Shown here: piece by piece, positions 2,642 through 37,275 of the stretch
Layout of the letters: every line of letters begins with the position of its first letter
Numbering within the stretch: the stretch's first letter is position 1
Assembly: GCF_018614195.1 (NCBI RefSeq)
Contig: NZ_JAGGOT010000013.1
Coordinates: 339-64,338, forward strand
Direction of reading: 5' to 3'
DNA: 64,000 nt
Source of the DNA: Streptomyces sp. ISL-43
Lineage (GTDB): Bacteria; Actinomycetota; Actinomycetes; Streptomycetales; Streptomycetaceae
The notes under the pieces: model-generated
What the model was told of the DNA's origin: nothing
Seen by the model: only the letters and a program-made list of their open reading frames with translations
The model's database searches: none
Position numbers and translations under genes: made by a program

Positions 2642-3736
2642 ATGACCCGGCAGAGCAGGACCAGTCCCGCGGGCAGTGAGCGCAGTCTGCACCAGGCGTA
2701 CGACACGGCCCTGCTGGACCTCGACGGGGTGGTGTACGCGGGCGGGGAGGCCATCGCGCACGCCGTGGACTCGCTCGCCGCGGCCCGGGCCGACGGGATG
2801 CGACTCGCGTACGTCACGAACAACGCGCTGCGCACTCCGGACGCGGTCGCGGAGCATCTGAGCGAGCTCGGGATCCCGACGGAGGCGGGCGAGGTGATCA
2901 CCTCCGCGCAGGCGGTGGCCCGCCTCATCGCCGAACAGGTGGAGCCGGGGTCGAAGGTGCTGGTGATCGGCGGCGAGGGGCTGCGGGTCGCGCTGCGCGA
3001 GCGCGGGCTGGTGCCGGTGGACTCCGCCGAGGAGGAGGGCCTCGCGGCGGTCGTCCAGGGGTACGGGGGGCCCGACCTGCCGTGGGGGCGGTTCGCGGAG
3101 GCCTCGTACGCGATCAACCGCGGGGTGCCGTGGTACGCCTCGAACACCGATCTGACGATTCCGGGGGCACGGGGGATCGCGCCGGGCAACGGGGCGGCGG
3201 TGGAGGTCGTACGGATCGCCACGGGCGCGGAGCCGCAGGTGGCGGGCAAGCCGCTGCCCCCGATGCACCGCGAGACCGTGCTGCGGACCGGGGCGAAGCG
3301 GCCGCTGGTGGTCGGGGACCGGCTGGACACCGACATCGAGGGCGCCTTCAACGGGGAGGTGGACTCGCTGCTCGTGCTGACCGGGGTGACCGACGGGGCG
3401 CAGTTGCTGCGGGCCGAGCCGAAGTACCGGCCGACGTACGTGGACCGGGACCTGCGGGGGATGCTGACCGGGCAGCCGGAGGTGGTGGCGGCCGGCGAGG
3501 GGACCGACGGCGCCGACGGGGGCTTCCGCTGCGGGCGCTGGACCGCTGCGGTCCTCGACGGACGGTTGGAACTGACGCGGGTGCTCACCGTCACGCCGGA
3601 GGGGAAGGCCGTGGACGGGCCGGCCGGGGATCCGCTCGACGGGCTGCGGGCGCTGTGCGCGGCGGCGTGGACGCACGCCGGGGACGGCTCTTGCACGCTG
3701 GACGCGAGCAAGGCCCTTGACGAGCTGGGTCTGTAG
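2642..3736 (+). CDS. HAD-superfamily IIA (NagD-like) phosphatase
   Basis: A predicted sugar- or nucleotide-phosphate phosphatase of the HAD IIA (NagD/PGP) subfamily, cytoplasmic. Motif I is LLDLDGVVY with nucleophile Asp26 and acid/base Asp28. Motif II is YVTNNA (Thr59). The IIA cap domain follows, then the motif III lysine in GKPLPP, and motif IV VVGDRLDTDIEGA. At 364 residues it is about 100 longer than a minimal NagD; the extra C-terminal ~90 residues carry a small conserved-looking segment (FRCGRWTAAVLDG). The ATG has a strong ribosome binding site (aggagg at 8-10 nt) and a short hairpin upstream (2600-2615). Substrate cannot be told from sequence. Confidence 0.9.
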   Translation: MTRQSRTSPAGSERSLHQAYDTALLDLDGVVYAGGEAIAHAVDSLAAARADGMRLAYVTNNALRTPDAVAEHLSELGIPTEAGEVITSAQAVARLIAEQVEPGSKVLVIGGEGLRVALRERGLVPVDSAEEEGLAAVVQGYGGPDLPWGRFAEASYAINRGVPWYASNTDLTIPGARGIAPGNGAAVEVVRIATGAEPQVAGKPLPPMHRETVLRTGAKRPLVVGDRLDTDIEGAFNGEVDSLLVLTGVTDGAQLLRAEPKYRPTYVDRDLRGMLTGQPEVVAAGEGTDGADGGFRCGRWTAAVLDGRLELTRVLTVTPEGKAVDGPAGDPLDGLRALCAAAWTHAGDGSCTLDASKALDELGL

Positions 3737-31373: not shown

Positions 31374-32899
31374 TGCGAAGCAGCGGCAACGGCAACGGTG
31401 GCGGCAACAGGAACAGCGGCGGCGGTGGCGGCGGCGGGCGTGGTAATGCCCGCGGCGGCAGCTCCAGCGGCGGCGGTGGCTACCGCGGTGGCGGCTCCGG
31501 CGGTGGCAGCGGCTCCGGCGGCGGCTACCGCGGCGGCAGCTCCAGCGGCGGCTCCGGCGGCTCCGGCGGCGGCGGTGGCTACCGCGGTGGCGGCTCCGGC
31601 GGCGGCAGCTCCAGCGGTGGCTACCGCTCGGGCGGCAGCGGCTCGGGCGGCAGCTCCGGCGGCGGCTACCGCAGTGGCGGCTCCGGCAGCGGCGGCTCCG
31701 GCGGCGGCTACCGCTCCGGCGGCTCCGGCAGCGGTGGCGGCTACCAGGGCGGCGGCTCCGGCGGTGGCTACCAGGGCGGCGGCTCCGGCGGCTACCAGGG
31801 TGGCGGCTCCGACCGCGACCGCGAGCCCGCGCCCCGCATCCGCAACCCCCGCCCCGAGGAGCGTCGCTACGACGTGGGTCCCGAGGGCGAGCGCAACGGT
31901 CGCGGTGGCGCCAAGGCGGGCGGCGGCGGTGCCCGCGGCGCGGCCGACGGCAGCCGCGGCGGTGCCCGCGGTGACGCGGCGCGCGGTGGTGCCAAGGGCG
32001 GCCCCAAGAGCCCCAGGACCCCCGGCATCGGCGGAGCCGGCGGCCCGCGCCGCGGCCCCGGCAGCCGCAGCGGCCAGTCCAAGCCGCGCGAGCTGGAGGC
32101 GCGGATCGAGGAGCGCGTGCGCGACCGGTACGCCGACAAGCCCGTGATCAAGACCCCGAAGACCTTCCCCGGCGCGGAGGAGGAGGGCGAGCGTCTGCAG
32201 AAGGTCCTCGCCCGGGCCGGCATGGGTTCGCGCCGTGCGTGCGAGGAGCTCATCGAGCAGGCCCGTGTCGAGGTCAACGGCGAGATCGTGCTGTCGCAGG
32301 GCAAGCGCGTCCTGCCGAAGGACGAGATCAAGGTGGACGGCCTGACCGTCGCCACCCAGTCGTACCTGTTCTTCGCGCTGAACAAGCCCGCCGGCGTCGT
32401 CTCCACGATGGAGGACCCGGACGGCCGCCAGTGCCTCGGCGACTACGTCACCAACCGTGAGACGCGTCTCTTCCACGTCGGTCGGCTCGACACCGAGACC
32501 GAGGGCATCATCCTGCTCACCAACCACGGTGAGCTGGCCCACCGCCTCACGCACCCGAAGTACGGCGTGAAGAAGACCTACGTCGCCGCCATCACCGGCC
32601 CGCTGCCGCGCGAGATCGGCAAGCGCCTCAAGGACGGCATCGAGCTGGAGGACGGGTACGCCCGCGCCGACCACTTCCGCGTCGTCGACCAGGTCGGCAA
32701 GAACTACCTGGTCGAGGTGACCCTCCACGAGGGCCGCAAGCACATCGTCCGCCGCATGATGGCGGAGGCCGGCTTCCCCGTCGAGAAGCTCGTCCGGACC
32801 GCCTTCGGCCCGATCGAGCTCGGCGACCAGAAGTCCGGCTGGCTGCGCCGCCTGACCAACACCGAGGTCGGCATGCTCATGCGCGAGGTCGGTCTGTAA
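31373..32899 (+). CDS. rluB: RluB/RsuA-type rRNA pseudouridine synthase with long Gly-rich N-terminus
   Basis: Isomerises a uridine to pseudouridine in rRNA (23S, if RluB-like). The enzyme proper starts at about residue 265: an S4 domain (RLQKVLARAGMGSRRACEELI) then the catalytic domain with FALNKPAGVVSTM and the catalytic Asp in HVGRLDTETEGIIL, ending LVRTAFGPIELGD. Before it lie ~145 residues of almost pure Gly/Ser with repeated GGGYRGGGSGGG-like units, then ~100 residues rich in Arg/Gly/Ala. The tail could bind RNA. At 508 residues it is about twice the usual length. ATG 31373 overlaps the scpB stop. Confidence 0.92.
   Translation: MRSSGNGNGGGNRNSGGGGGGGRGNARGGSSSGGGGYRGGGSGGGSGSGGGYRGGSSSGGSGGSGGGGGYRGGGSGGGSSSGGYRSGGSGSGGSSGGGYRSGGSGSGGSGGGYRSGGSGSGGGYQGGGSGGGYQGGGSGGYQGGGSDRDREPAPRIRNPRPEERRYDVGPEGERNGRGGAKAGGGGARGAADGSRGGARGDAARGGAKGGPKSPRTPGIGGAGGPRRGPGSRSGQSKPRELEARIEERVRDRYADKPVIKTPKTFPGAEEEGERLQKVLARAGMGSRRACEELIEQARVEVNGEIVLSQGKRVLPKDEIKVDGLTVATQSYLFFALNKPAGVVSTMEDPDGRQCLGDYVTNRETRLFHVGRLDTETEGIILLTNHGELAHRLTHPKYGVKKTYVAAITGPLPREIGKRLKDGIELEDGYARADHFRVVDQVGKNYLVEVTLHEGRKHIVRRMMAEAGFPVEKLVRTAFGPIELGDQKSGWLRRLTNTEVGMLMREVGL
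31430..31815 (+). repeat. Gly/Ser/Tyr-coding low-complexity repeat inside rluB
   Basis: About 385 bp of degenerate repeats built on ggcggctccggcggcggc and gctaccgcggtggc units, coding GGGYRGG, GGSGGG and GGYQGG blocks. Slippage-prone; copy number is likely to vary between strains. Confidence 0.85.
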
Positions 32900-32939
32900 G
32901 GACCGGCTGCTCCTCCTCGTACGACTCCTCGTACGACCG

Positions 32940-32971
32940 AAACCCGCGGTGCCCTTCGGCACCGCGGGTTT
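32940..32971 (+). terminator. Terminator after rluB
   Basis: A perfect 14-bp stem (32940-32953 with 32958-32971), a 4-base cttc loop and adjacent Ts. It ends the parA-scpA-scpB-rluB unit just before the pnuC promoter. Confidence 0.85.
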
Positions 32972-32977
32972 TCGTGC

Positions 32978-33006
32978 TTGTGCCGACCCCTGGTCTTCTT
33001 TATAGT
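32978..33006 (+). promoter_or_regulatory. Promoter of the pnuC-nadR-nrtR operon
   Basis: -35 TTGTGC (32978-32983), a 17-base spacer and -10 TATAGT (33001-33006), placing transcription start near 33013. Unusually consensus-like for Streptomyces and overlapped by the operator palindrome. Confidence 0.75.
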
Positions 33007-33021
33007 CAACCTGACTATAAA
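32999..33021. promoter_or_regulatory. NrtR-type operator palindrome
   Basis: Perfect inverted repeat with 10-bp arms (32999-33008 and 33012-33021) and a 3-base spacer; the arms read tttatagtca and tgactataaa. It covers the -10 box and start point of the operon that encodes an NrtR homologue, so autorepression is the natural reading. Assignment to NrtR is inferred from context. Confidence 0.75.
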
Positions 33022-33041
33022 GAGAGCGAGGGGTCGTCATC

Positions 33042-33650
33042 ATGGGGTGGCAGACGAGCTGGACCGAGGTCCTCGGATTCGCCACGGGGGCGCTGTGCGT
33101 CTGGCTGGTCGCCCGGCAGCACATCGCCAACTGGCCGATCGGCATCGCCAACAACGTCTTCTTCATCGTGCTCTTCGCCCAGGCCGAGCTCTACGCCGAC
33201 GCCGGGCTGCAGATCGTCTTCATCGCCCTCGCCGCGTACGGCTGGTGGTCCTGGACCCACGGGGGTGGACCAGGAACCGCCGAGGCACTGCCGGTGCGCC
33301 GCACGACGGCCGCCGAGTGGGCCGCGCTGGGCGCGGCGGGGGCGGTGGGGGTGCTCGGCCTGACGCTCCTGCTGAGCCGGGCCACCGACTCCACCGTCCC
33401 GTTCTGGGACGCGGCGACCACCGGACTCTCGCTCATGGCCACCTACGGGCAGTGCCGCAAGCTCCTGGAGTCCTGGTGGCTGTGGATCGCCGCCGACCTC
33501 GTCTACATCCCGCTGTACGTCTACAAGGGGCTCTACCTCACCGCCCTGCTCTACGCCGTCTTCCTCGCCCTGTGCGTGGCCGGACTGCTCGGCTGGCGCC
33601 GGGCGCTCCCCGCGCGCGGCACCCGCGAGGCCCTGGGAGCGACGGCGTGA
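33042..33650 (+). CDS. pnuC: Nicotinamide riboside transporter PnuC
   Basis: A 202-residue membrane protein with about seven hydrophobic segments that brings nicotinamide riboside into the cell by facilitated diffusion, trapping it by phosphorylation. The N-terminal segment WTEVLGFATGALCVWLVARQ and NWPIGIANNVFFIVLF are typical of PnuC, as is the YGWWSW motif. ATG 33042 has gcgagggg as ribosome binding site and lies about 20 nt after the operator. Its stop overlaps nadR by 4 bp, putting uptake and the first phosphorylation in one unit. Confidence 0.93.
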   Translation: MGWQTSWTEVLGFATGALCVWLVARQHIANWPIGIANNVFFIVLFAQAELYADAGLQIVFIALAAYGWWSWTHGGGPGTAEALPVRRTTAAEWAALGAAGAVGVLGLTLLLSRATDSTVPFWDAATTGLSLMATYGQCRKLLESWWLWIAADLVYIPLYVYKGLYLTALLYAVFLALCVAGLLGWRRALPARGTREALGATA

Positions 33651-34798
33651 AGCGCCACGGAGGGGCGAAGTACGGGCACGGCCTGGTGCTCGGCAAGTTC
33701 TATCCGCCGCACGCCGGCCACCACCACCTGGTGCGCACCGCCCAGGACCAGTGCGAGCGGCTGACCGTGCTGGTGTGCGCCGCCTCGGTGGAGTCGGTGC
33801 CGCTGGCCGACCGGGTCGCCTGGATGCGCGAGGCGCATCCCGGCGCCGACGTGGTCGGCGCGGTCGACGACATCCCGGTCGACCTGCGCGACCCGGAGAT
33901 CTGGGAGGCCCACATGGCGGTCTTCCGGGGCGCGGTGCGCCGACGGGTCGACGCCGTCTTCACCTCGGAGGCCTACGGGGGCGAGCTCGCGCGGCGGTTC
34001 GGGGCCGAGGAGGTCTGCGTCGACCGGGAGCGCACCCTCTTCCCGGTGTCCGGGACGGCGGTACGGGCGGACCCGGTCGGGAACTGGGAGTTCCTGGGAC
34101 CCGCCGTACGGGCCGCCCTGACCCGGCGGATCGTCGTACTCGGCGCCGAGTCCACCGGGACGACGACGCTGTCGCGGGCCCTGGCGGCCCACTGGCGGCG
34201 GCGCGGCGGGGTGTGGGCGAAGACGGGCTGGGTGGCGGAGTACGGCCGGCAGTACAGCGAGGAGCGGCTCGCGGCGGCGCGCGCGGCGGACCCCGCGGCG
34301 ACGTGGGCCGACGTGAGCTTCACCTCGGCCGAGTTCCCGGTCATCGCCCGGCGCCAGGACGCGCAGGAGGATCGGGCGGCCCGGCTGGGATCGCCGGTGC
34401 TCTTCTGCGACACCGACTCCTTCGCCACCGGCATCTGGCACGAGCGGTACACGGGCGGGCGCAACGAGGAGGTCGAGCGGATCGCCGCCGGCACGCACCG
34501 GGACCTGTACCTGCTCACCGACCACGCGGACGTGCCCTTCGAGGACGACGGGCTGCGCGACGGAGAGCACCTGAGGCCGTGGATGACCGCGCGGTTCCGG
34601 GAGGAGCTGGAGCGGACCGGGAGACGCTTCCTGGTGGTGCGCGGGGACCGGGAGGCCCGGCTGGCGGCGGCCGTGTCGGCCGTCGACGCACTGCTCGCGG
34701 AGGGCCGGCACTTCGCGGACCCGCTTCCGGAGCGGGTACGGGGTCCGCTGCCGGAGCAGGCCTCGGAGCCGGACCGCGTACGGGAGCAGGGCCGATGA
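33647..34798 (+). CDS. nadR: NadR-like NMN adenylyltransferase / ribosylnicotinamide kinase
   Basis: A 383-residue bifunctional enzyme predicted to phosphorylate nicotinamide riboside to NMN and adenylate NMN to NAD. The N-terminal nucleotidyltransferase domain has GLVLGKFYPPHAGHHHLV (HxGH-type motif); the ISTxxR-like counterpart is VSGTAVRADP. The C-terminal kinase domain starts at about residue 160 with VVLGAESTGTTTLSRAL, in which Thr stands where Walker A normally has Lys, followed by the acidic segment FCDTDSFATGIWHE. It lacks the E. coli NadR N-terminal DNA-binding domain, so regulation is left to nrtR. GTG 33647 overlaps pnuC. Confidence 0.93.
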   Translation: MKRHGGAKYGHGLVLGKFYPPHAGHHHLVRTAQDQCERLTVLVCAASVESVPLADRVAWMREAHPGADVVGAVDDIPVDLRDPEIWEAHMAVFRGAVRRRVDAVFTSEAYGGELARRFGAEEVCVDRERTLFPVSGTAVRADPVGNWEFLGPAVRAALTRRIVVLGAESTGTTTLSRALAAHWRRRGGVWAKTGWVAEYGRQYSEERLAAARAADPAATWADVSFTSAEFPVIARRQDAQEDRAARLGSPVLFCDTDSFATGIWHERYTGGRNEEVERIAAGTHRDLYLLTDHADVPFEDDGLRDGEHLRPWMTARFREELERTGRRFLVVRGDREARLAAAVSAVDALLAEGRHFADPLPERVRGPLPEQASEPDRVREQGR

Positions 34799-35544
34799 GT
34801 GACGCCGGACAGGACTACGACCCGTACGCGTTCGAGCCGTTCGCGGTGACCGTCGACCTCGCCGTCTTCACCGTCCGCGGCGGGACCCTGCACGTGCTGC
34901 TGATCCGGCGCGGGCAGGAACCGTACGCGGGCGCCTGGGCGCTCCCCGGCGGCTTCGTACTGCCCCGGGAATCCGCGGAGACGGCCGCCCGGCGCGAACT
35001 GGCCGAGGAGACCGGCCTGTCGGCGGACGTGATCGCCGCCCTGCACCTGGACCAGCTGCGCACCTACAGCGAACCGGACCGGGACCCCCGGATGCGGGTC
35101 GTCTCGGTGGCCTTCACCGCGCTCGTCCCCGACCTGCCCGAACCGGCGGCCGGGGGCGGCGGAGACGCCGACCGGGCCCGCTGGGTGCCGGTGGGGGAGG
35201 CGGGCCCGTCGGCGGGCCTCGCCTTCGACCACGCGGTGATCCTGGCGGACGCCCGGGAGCGGGTCGGCGCGAAGCTGGAGTACAGCTGCCTGGCCACCGC
35301 CTTCTGCCCGCCCGAATTCACCCTCGGCGAGCTCCAGGCCGTCTACGAGACCGTCTGGAACACCGCCCTGGACCGGCCCAACTTCCGGCGCAAGGTGCTG
35401 GCCACGCCCGGATTCGTCGAGGCCGTGCCCGGCGCCGCCCGGCTCACCGGCGGCCGCGGGAAACCGGCCGCGCTGTACCGGCCCGGGCCCGCCACCACCC
35501 TGCACCCGCCCCTGCTCCGCCCCTCGGAAGGACACACACGATGA
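34795..35544 (+). CDS. nrtR: Nudix-related transcriptional regulator NrtR
   Basis: A 249-residue repressor of NAD metabolism, ligand-responsive (typically ADP-ribose). The N-terminal Nudix domain contains an intact-looking box: GGFVLPRESAETAAR then RELAEETGL, with every consensus acidic residue in place. The C-terminal winged helix begins PPEFTLGELQAVYETVW and contains LDRPNFRRKVL and the final GGRGKPAALYRPG typical of the family. It lies in the operon it should control. ATG 34795 overlaps the nadR stop as ATGA. An intact Nudix box raises the possibility of residual hydrolase activity. Confidence 0.93.
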   Translation: MSDAGQDYDPYAFEPFAVTVDLAVFTVRGGTLHVLLIRRGQEPYAGAWALPGGFVLPRESAETAARRELAEETGLSADVIAALHLDQLRTYSEPDRDPRMRVVSVAFTALVPDLPEPAAGGGGDADRARWVPVGEAGPSAGLAFDHAVILADARERVGAKLEYSCLATAFCPPEFTLGELQAVYETVWNTALDRPNFRRKVLATPGFVEAVPGAARLTGGRGKPAALYRPGPATTLHPPLLRPSEGHTR

Positions 35545-36560
35545 CGACGACCACGAAGCGGGCGGCTACGGGCGCCCTGCTCGGACTGGCCCTGGGAGAC
35601 GCCCTGGGCTTTCCCACGGAGTTCAACGACGTGCCGGGGATCCTTGCCAAGACCGGCCCCTGGCGGTCCATGGCCCTCCCCCGCCCGGCGATCGTCACGG
35701 ACGACACCCAGATGACCCTGGCCTTCGCCCGGGGCATACGGACCGCCGCCGACCGCGGCCGGGTGGGCCCCCTGCGCCTGGCCCGGCCGGTCCGGGAGGA
35801 GTTCGTCGACTGGTACCACTCCCCGGAGAACAACCGGGCCCCGGGCAACACCTGCCTGAAGGCCTGCAGCCTGCTGAACCTGCCCGAGCGGGACTGGCGC
35901 GACGCCAGCCAGCTGGGCTCCAAGGGCTGCGGCGCGAACATGCGGGTGGCGCCGGCCGGACTGGTGCCCGGCTGGACGGAGGAGGAGCGGGCCGGCGCGG
36001 CCCAGCTCCAGTCGGCCCTCACCCACGGCCACCCGACGGCGCTGGCCGCCTCCGACCTGACGGCCCGTGCGGTGTTCCTGCTGGCGCGGGGCACGGAGGT
36101 GACCGGCCTGGTCGGGCAGCTGCGCTCGTACGCCCTGGAGAACCGCACCCGCTACCACGAGCGCTGGCTCGGCGACCTGTGGACGCGTACGTCGTCCGAC
36201 GCCTCGCCGGAGTCCTTCATCGCACGCGGCTGGGACGAGTGCCTGGGCGTCCTGGACCGCCTGGCCGCGGCCCTGCGCTCGCCTTCCCCGGAGACGGACC
36301 CCTGCCTGACGACGGGCGACGGCTGGATCGCCGAAGAGGCCCTGGCCACGGCCCTGCAGTGCTTCCTGCTCTTCCCGGAGGAACCCCTCCTCGCCCTGCG
36401 CCGCGCGGCCTGCACGAAGGGCGACTCCGACTCCATCGCCTGCCTCGCCGGCGCCTTCGCGGGCGCCCACCTCGGCGCGGACGCCTGGCCCCGCGACTGG
36501 GAGGGCCGCATCGAGTACCGCGCCGAACTGCTGGCCTTCGGCGCCCTCTGGGACGCCTGA
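35541..36560 (+). CDS. ADP-ribosylglycohydrolase family protein
   Basis: A 339-residue DraG/ARH3-type hydrolase predicted to remove ADP-ribose from proteins, nucleic acids or small molecules, using paired Mg ions. Metal-binding motifs are VTDDTQMTLAF (about residues 52-62) and GDSDSIACLAGAFAGA near residue 295. It starts with AATGALLGLALGDALGFPTEF, the family opening. It overlaps nrtR by ATGA. The link to NAD salvage makes sense: release of ADP-ribose would supply the NrtR ligand and recycle NAD pieces. It ends 7 bp from a convergent nucleotidyltransferase gene. Confidence 0.93.
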   Translation: MTTTTKRAATGALLGLALGDALGFPTEFNDVPGILAKTGPWRSMALPRPAIVTDDTQMTLAFARGIRTAADRGRVGPLRLARPVREEFVDWYHSPENNRAPGNTCLKACSLLNLPERDWRDASQLGSKGCGANMRVAPAGLVPGWTEEERAGAAQLQSALTHGHPTALAASDLTARAVFLLARGTEVTGLVGQLRSYALENRTRYHERWLGDLWTRTSSDASPESFIARGWDECLGVLDRLAAALRSPSPETDPCLTTGDGWIAEEALATALQCFLLFPEEPLLALRRAACTKGDSDSIACLAGAFAGAHLGADAWPRDWEGRIEYRAELLAFGALWDA

Positions 36561-36567
36561 CCCATAC

Positions 36568-37275
36568 TCAGCCGAGGGCAGAGGCGCGGCGGGTGCGGAG
36601 GAGGAAGTCCTCCACTCGGGGAAGGTCCGCGGTCTCGGGGAGGGGGGTCGTCGACAGGGCGGACTCGGACTGGGTCATCAGGCGGGTCATCCAGGCGTCG
36701 ACCTCGTCCCAGGTGAGTTCGCCGCGGCGCACTGCCAGGAGGCGGTCGCGGTAGGGGCCCGCGTCGATGACCAGGTGTCCCGTGCGCAGCAGGTCGCGGC
36801 AGGACAGGAGCAGGCGCAGCAGGTGCATGGCGTGCTTCCAGCGCGGGACGCCGTGGTTGCGGAGGTCCCCGAGGAGCTTGCCGCGCTGGGAGATCGCGTA
36901 CCGGCTGAAGGTGGTGTGGGCCTGGCGGGAGAGGAACGCCCCGCGGAGCGCGAGGAGTTCCTCTCCGGCCGGGGTGAGGTGTTCCACGACGGGGGAGTGG
37001 AGGCACTCCAGGATGTTCGGGTTGGCGCGCAGGGCGAGCTCGCAGAAGCGCTCCAGCTCCCAGGAGAACTCCTCCTCCCGCGGCCCGTCCACGTGCGTCG
37101 GGGGCTTGGCGAGGCCCCAGAACAGAGGCGTCGGGGCGAGGTAGACACCGCGCCGGTCGGTGTCGCTCGCCTCCGTGGCCAGGCCGAACGCCCTCGAACC
37201 CATCACGCACGAGTAGATCGTGTGGTCCCTGACCAGGGTGAGTTCGAGCGGCTCGGGCGTCGGCTTGTCGTTCAT
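36568..37275 (-). CDS. RlaP-type DNA polymerase beta superfamily nucleotidyltransferase
   Basis: A 235-residue predicted nucleotidyltransferase. The active-site motif CVMGSRAFGLATEASDTDRRG (about residues 19-39) has the GSxxxG and DxD pattern of the pol-beta superfamily. The C-terminal helical part includes KHAMHLLRLLL and is typical of RlaP proteins, named for association with RNA repair ligases. No RNA ligase or repair partner is adjacent; the neighbour is an ADP-ribosylglycohydrolase. The ATG has no Shine-Dalgarno, and TAGGCT lies 6 nt upstream, so a leaderless transcript is likely. Substrate unknown. Confidence 0.85.
   Translation of the reverse strand: MNDKPTPEPLELTLVRDHTIYSCVMGSRAFGLATEASDTDRRGVYLAPTPLFWGLAKPPTHVDGPREEEFSWELERFCELALRANPNILECLHSPVVEHLTPAGEELLALRGAFLSRQAHTTFSRYAISQRGKLLGDLRNHGVPRWKHAMHLLRLLLSCRDLLRTGHLVIDAGPYRDRLLAVRRGELTWDEVDAWMTRLMTQSESALSTTPLPETADLPRVEDFLLRTRRASALG

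Follow-up and report, generated by a model that had tools for sequence, protein, structure and literature searches.

The window analysed here, a stretch of 64,000 nucleotides from Streptomyces sp. ISL-43 (contig NZ_JAGGOT010000013.1, positions 339 to 64,338), contains a forward-strand operon of four overlapping genes behind a palindromic operator that we predict to bind the regulator NrtR. The order pnuC, nadR, nrtR and ADP-ribosylglycohydrolase gene (draG) that a sequence-only reading of this DNA had given was borne out, with GTGA, ATGA and ATGA at the three junctions. We compared the locus with 80 orthologous loci, the best 80 of 483 confirmed nrtR relatives from named genomes; this set is biased to close relatives and includes one record titled only 'Actinobacteria bacterium' and one metagenome-assembled genome. 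The closest named nrtR loci are from Streptomyces, with NrtR identities of 85-93%.

The first gene, pnuC (33042..33650, +), encodes a member of the nicotinamide riboside transporter family (PF04973, NMN_transporter, 1.9e-58; PDB 4qtn, 1.3e-8) that passes TIGR01528 with 98.6 bits against a cut-off of 42.45. It is followed by the gene for a NadR-like nicotinamide mononucleotide adenylyltransferase (NMNAT) and P-loop kinase-like protein (33647..34798, +), which combines PF13521 (AAA_28) with PF01467 (CTP_transf_like), lacks a Pfam match to a helix-turn-helix domain and stays below the TIGR01526 cut-off (184.6 versus 341.15 bits). HxGH is the NMNAT motif, and it is kept as PPHAGH or PPHTGH in 41/41 orthologues of this protein. 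The third product, which we call NrtR1 (34795..35544, +), joins a Nudix domain (PF00293, 84.5 bits) to the NrtR winged helix (PF21906, NrtR_WHD, 53.9 bits, cut-off 27) and matches PDB entries 5bs6 and 3gz5; the two Pfam domains and the homology to 3gz5 support its earlier designation as NrtR. Its Nudix signature is intact, as it is in 79/80 orthologues (L129 differs). The last gene (35541..36560, +) encodes a DraG-like ADP-ribosylglycohydrolase (PF03747, 2.4e-61, 208 bits; PDB 2woe and ARH3 entries). Paired aspartate motifs are characteristic of ADP-ribosylglycohydrolases, and both ([ST]DDTQM and GDSDS) are intact in 80/80 loci; the protein falls below the nitrogenase DraG equivalog TIGR02662 (67.9 versus 337 bits).

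Upstream of pnuC lies the predicted NrtR operator (32997..33023, no strand assigned), a perfect 12-3-12 palindrome, TCTTTATAGTCA-ACC-TGACTATAAAGA, with 12-base arms at 32997-33008 and 33012-33023 around the spacer ACC; we assessed it across the 80 loci and 150 genomes of the genus. The 10-3-10 palindrome noted previously at 32999-33021 is a correct subset of this longer one, and the accompanying claim that the operator covers TATAGT holds, since this likely -10 box (33001..33006, +) sits inside the left arm. A likely -35 box, TTGTGC (32978..32983, +), lies 17 bases upstream of it. With up to three mismatches allowed, the core query TATAGTCAN3TGACTATA has one copy in the window against 0.00 expected (100 shuffles), and a search of the 8.87 Mb genome for further copies at the same tolerance found this one only.

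The site, whose absence before orthologous operons the sequence-only reading had taken to speak against NrtR control, precedes the first operon gene in 80/80 loci, be it pnuC (38), nrtR (38) or nadR (4). Mismatches at its 16 fixed positions are few (0 in 3 loci, 1 in 26, 2 in 38, 3 in 11 and 4 in 2). The left arm, TTTATAGTC, is nearly invariant while the right arm is more variable, as would be expected if the left arm doubles as the -10 box. The spacing to the TTG of the -35 box is likewise conserved in the orthologous promoters: a TTG stands at a 17-18 bp spacer in 78/80 loci and at 15-20 bp in 80/80, compared with 7/800 control windows further upstream. A pseudouridine synthase gene (called rsuA; Pfam) lies upstream of the operon in all 80 loci; in six of them (L090, L098, L099, L105, L124 and L129) the gap between the two widens to 3-4 kb, and the operator still adjoins nrtR.

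Regulator and site also travel together. Counting NrtR1 as present where the best match has E < 1e-85, we found it in 99 of 150 genomes of the genus; the weakest match counted (G080) has 72% identity, and the next class lies at about 61-64%. The strict site WATRGTCN5GACYMTW occurs in 94/99 genomes with NrtR1 and in 5/51 without it (Fisher p 4e-27), and the reversed pattern in 6/150. Since nearly all strict-site genomes hold a single one, NrtR1 looks like a local autoregulator. These comparisons strongly support a predicted unit of NrtR1, operator and promoter.

While nrtR and draG occur together in 80/80 loci, pnuC is found in 38/80 (one of them, L078, a short remnant) and nadR in 41/80. The earlier description of a self-contained nicotinamide adenine dinucleotide (NAD) salvage operon therefore holds only in part, the invariant core being nrtR-draG. 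With draG beside nrtR throughout and pnuC and nadR optional, the invariant unit would be an ADP-ribose sensor plus an enzyme expected to release ADP-ribose. In the sample from other genera, 40/80 genomes have an NrtR_WHD match, and among 30 loci returned with Streptomyces protein queries a draG relative (28% identity) adjoins nrtR in one and pncB does so in one; the nrtR-draG link is not general outside Streptomyces in this sample.

The part of the locus that seems new, and one that a specialist would not expect, is a conserved RNA-type hairpin, CCTGGACCCACGGGGGTGGACCAGG, inside pnuC (33250..33274, +), which the sequence-only reading had missed and which is marked by silent-site constraint, a covariation score and retention in leaders that lack pnuC. 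Codons 74-77 read GGG GGT GGA CCA almost invariably in 50 pnuC genes. Five of these genes came from loci found by means of the hairpin, and a recount without them gave GGG in 45/45, GGT in 44/45, GGA in 42/45 and CCA for 36 of 43 prolines. These 45 genes contain 262 proline codons and 62 GGT codons; every one of their 36 CCA codons and 44 of the GGT codons fall at the hairpin site, and the silent-site constraint thus persists after hairpin-selected loci are dropped. Searched as a relaxed 25-nt motif with at most two departures, the hairpin is present in 47/80 loci, namely 37/38 with pnuC and 10/42 without.

We inspected 13 pnuC-less leaders, 10 from the 80 loci, one from the operator-site search and two from the hairpin-pattern search (L066, L075, L106 and L128 are among the hairpin loci). 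In each the hairpin stands between the operator and the next gene, and outside it the leaders share little, apart from some pnuC-like or mutually similar remnants. On an nrtR-draG tree built by a quick method, five changes are needed to account for the eight leaders lacking both pnuC and nadR, and well-supported branches force every one of them; two further hairpin leaders retain nadR. Selection on the encoded peptide, WTWTHGGGPG, was considered as the sole cause of the conservation. Six of the 13 leaders have no in-frame ATG, GTG or TTG between operator and hairpin, so the peptide cannot be that sole cause, and two of these six encode R in place of W. A dispersed repeat was also rejected, as the ISL-43 genome has one copy.

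Folding compared with shuffled sequence gave z -3.6 for the window hairpin, -3.3 for L066 and a weaker -2.1 for L108. The apex is fixed as CC-N-AC-GGGG-GUGG, and the stem changes with pairing largely kept. Against 500 shuffles, which leave relatedness in place, 14 hand-chosen operon sequences reached a covariation score of 0.153 versus 0.073 (0/500 as high), with 9 versus 5.9 further pair types (5/500) and 4 versus 2.5 pairs changed on both sides (21/500). When the set was enlarged to 22 sequences by including the second copy described below, the score was 0.299 versus 0.117 (0/500), and slid versions of the structure scored lower in both sets. The outermost pairs break often (column 5 with 37 is unpaired in 9/22 sequences), and the inner stem, being invariant apart from three broken cells, gives no support either way. 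Rfam 15 has no match over the hairpin up to E 5, the sole weak match in 32800-36700 lying elsewhere, and an intrinsic terminator was rejected for the window, with 0 terminator-like sites. The constraint at silent sites speaks most strongly for the hairpin, and these folding and covariation results lend partial support to the predicted structure.

Across the 150 genomes the hairpin pattern matches in 74 and its reversed control in 9. Sorted by sequence, the operon type occurs in 51 genomes and a second type in 39, with both in 23; the second-type stem differs from the operon type in a compensating way. Operon-type hairpins are found in 49/99 genomes with NrtR1 and in 2/51 without. The second type was examined at 28 distinct loci (30 rows, two genomes appearing twice), 26 of them from the 39 genomes and two from a covariance-model search. 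All 28 place it ahead of one and the same zinc-ribbon Nudix gene and in that gene's orientation: 7 do so directly, and in the others a VanX-like dipeptidase gene, on one strand or the other, intervenes; these copies form one syntenic locus and therefore count as one event. ChsH2-like/thiolase and dipeptidase genes adjoin it (L149, L154, L225-L244). Often placed just after an opposite-strand dipeptidase gene, the second copy could act as a terminator. With strict filters, the covariance model matched 10 of 246 genomes of the class, nine in the genus and one, weakly, elsewhere (E 0.009). Antisense pairing of the two hairpin loci, considered as the cause of the fixed apex, is weakened by the 28 of 51 operon-hairpin genomes that have no second copy, and also by the ISL-43 genome, where a single hairpin copy and no second type was found.

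We lean, if only slightly, towards the view that the pnuC coding sequence harbours a previously undescribed cis-acting RNA element, which was retained in the leader where pnuC was lost and together with the second copy would form a second, RNA-level control arm over Streptomyces NAD and ADP-ribose genes, read by a protein or a small RNA.

For the operon as a whole, we think it probable that NrtR1 is an autorepressor acting on the palindrome at its -10 box and induced by ADP-ribose, with feedback through DraG, a Nudix-dependent reset and a hairpin in the transcript. NrtR1 bound to the palindrome would block the promoter of its own operon. As NAD breakdown or ADP-ribosylation of macromolecules let free ADP-ribose build up, the ligand would bind the Nudix domain and release NrtR1, by extension from characterized NrtRs: passages of two reports describe release of NrtR from DNA by ADP-ribose, in Mycobacterium smegmatis at 50 mM (PMC6800001) and in Streptococcus sobrinus (PMC12735969). 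Once the operon was induced, DraG would cleave ADP-ribose from adducts; in those members of the genus that have them, PnuC and the NadR-like enzyme would rebuild NAD. ADP-ribose raised by DraG might reinforce induction, and the intact Nudix box suggests a reset in which the inducer is perhaps hydrolysed by NrtR1 itself. The hairpin in or before pnuC is probably bound by a regulator acting at the RNA level. Feedback through draG and ADP-ribose is plausible for this operon; positive feedback has already been proposed for systems of an ADP-ribosylglycohydrolase (ARG) and a Nudix regulator, actinobacteria included (PMC9503650).

Several observations weigh against this model. A sigma-70 consensus scan called no promoter (0 found) and left the TTGTGC/TATAGT pair unscored, so that the promoter assignment rests on conservation. 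NrtR1 fails NCBIfam NF050029, a strict NtrR equivalog drawn more tightly than the family, with 123.2 against 400 bits. Besides the five genomes with the strict site and no NrtR1, five have NrtR1 and no strict site; the loose form (at most three mismatches) occurs in 97/99 genomes with NrtR1 and also in 30/51 without it, and only the strict form is therefore specific. GxxxxGK is the kinase P-loop motif, and in the NadR-like protein Thr replaces its Lys in 39/41 orthologues, while the pattern found no P-loop in the other two; the kinase step of this protein is accordingly doubtful. The hairpin is absent from 33/80 loci and hence not essential, and in the 22-sequence set neither pairs changed on both sides (5 versus 4.3; 181/500) nor pair types (11 versus 10.6; 284/500) exceed the shuffles.

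It is very unlikely that the palindrome belongs to a different regulator. NrtR1 was not found in the five strict-site genomes already mentioned, and the ISL-43 genome does encode one other NrtR paralogue, about 63% identical to NrtR1 (G000:C68:101717-102454). The strict site, however, co-occurs strongly with NrtR1, and the related palindromes of the form TAT[CT]GTCA differ from it. These were seen in 7 of the 30 loci returned by a site search, before a lone draG (L004, L021, L025 and L029) or before pncB, identified by Pfam (L014, L020 and L030); six of the seven genomes hold the paralogue only, and the seventh (G017, a fragmented assembly) has no NrtR_WHD match. We infer that the paralogue reads the TAT[CT]GTCA sites.

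Two other accounts of the operon deserve some weight, each of them clearly less probable than even. NrtR1 might sense NAD turnover only, as family precedent would allow, with DraG a co-regulated passenger that has no effect on the signal; a passenger would not explain why every one of the 80 loci has draG when many lack pnuC or nadR. That same distribution favours the other account, in which the operon is a repair or defence module that counters ADP-ribosylation and draws its inducer from foreign or toxic ADP-ribosylation, NrtR and the ARG often being joined by RlaP, with PnuC and NadR as add-ons that refill NAD. A same-strand RlaP-like gene lies just 3' of draG in 33/80 loci (two examples confirmed by Pfam), and passages of one source describe RlaP as an RNA-repair enzyme (PMC7824862). 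The same logic has been proposed for ARG systems with Nudix regulators (PMC9503650). Unlike a mobile defence island, however, the operon has a constant neighbour, the pseudouridine synthase gene found 5' of it in 80/80 loci, if 3-4 kb away in six, and Pfam found no phosphatase, chaperone or nuclease domain among the operon genes of the window. The autorepressor model with ADP-ribose feedback remains the one we prefer.

The operon is real, its operator assignment is well supported by the comparisons above, and its kind is already known. A palindromic operator before NAD-metabolism genes marks the NrtR family, and here it is conserved in 80/80 orthologous loci. The NrtR regulons of M. smegmatis (MsNrtR), Streptococcus suis (nadR-pnuC-nrtR), S. 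sobrinus (SsNrtR, on pnuC and pncB) and Shewanella (3gz5/3gz6, which we take to be locus SO_1979) share with this operon the Nudix and winged-helix regulator, an operator at NAD genes, autoregulation, which is predicted here, and the salvage genes pnuC/nadR, so that it belongs among them. It differs in its operator, the M. smegmatis one being GTTTTCGA-N7-TCGAAAAC, and in its intact Nudix signature, whereas the passages on MsNrtR and SsNrtR describe degenerate Nudix boxes with no activity found. Having draG as an invariant partner also sets it apart from the NrtR regulons compared.

ARG-centred systems with Nudix or WYL regulators (PMC9503650) resemble the operon in their ARG, Nudix regulator and induction logic and in having no coupled ADP-ribosyltransferase gene. 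The coupled phosphatase (in a little over 55% of these systems) or chaperone has no counterpart among the window operon genes, and our operon adds PnuC and the NadR-like protein; neither 'pnuC' nor 'RlaP' occurs in the main text of that report. The riboflavin transporters RibM/PnuX of actinobacteria share the PnuC family, according to passages of PMC4418817; unlike them, pnuC here stands among NAD genes, and Rfam has no flavin mononucleotide riboswitch match in 32800-36700. In the titles, abstract openings and passages that our literature search covered, a scope outside which Rodionov 2008 and Huang 2009 lie, no Streptomyces NrtR regulon and no such hairpin is named.

The operon combines a single operator, a regulator whose Nudix site appears to be live and an enzyme that possibly makes the inducer, and so offers a compact system in which to test ADP-ribose signalling in bacteria. 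Should the hairpin prove to be a regulatory RNA, it would add an unrecognised RNA-level control of Streptomyces NAD and ADP-ribose genes and show how regulatory RNAs can reside within a gene and persist once that gene is gone.

Some minor observations concern the surroundings of these elements. In one genome (L245, around 3406-3424) a second strict operator stands before a Band_7 gene and, behind that, a gene with weak resemblance to NAD kinase, which lends weak support to NAD kinase as a second NrtR1 target there. A TACGGTCAGRCTGACGATA-like palindrome near position 1500 in L006, L010, L017 and L019, between thioredoxin-like and flavin-reductase-like genes (labelled by Pfam in L017 and by resemblance of open reading frames in the other three), probably belongs to another regulator. 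In the window, the operon is followed by a convergent RlaP-family nucleotidyltransferase gene (36568..37275, -; PF10127, 2.2e-31), a neighbour outside the operon, and in many loci the RlaP-like fifth operon gene (L056:6749-7516, L094:6758-7525 and others) faces a convergent second RlaP gene.

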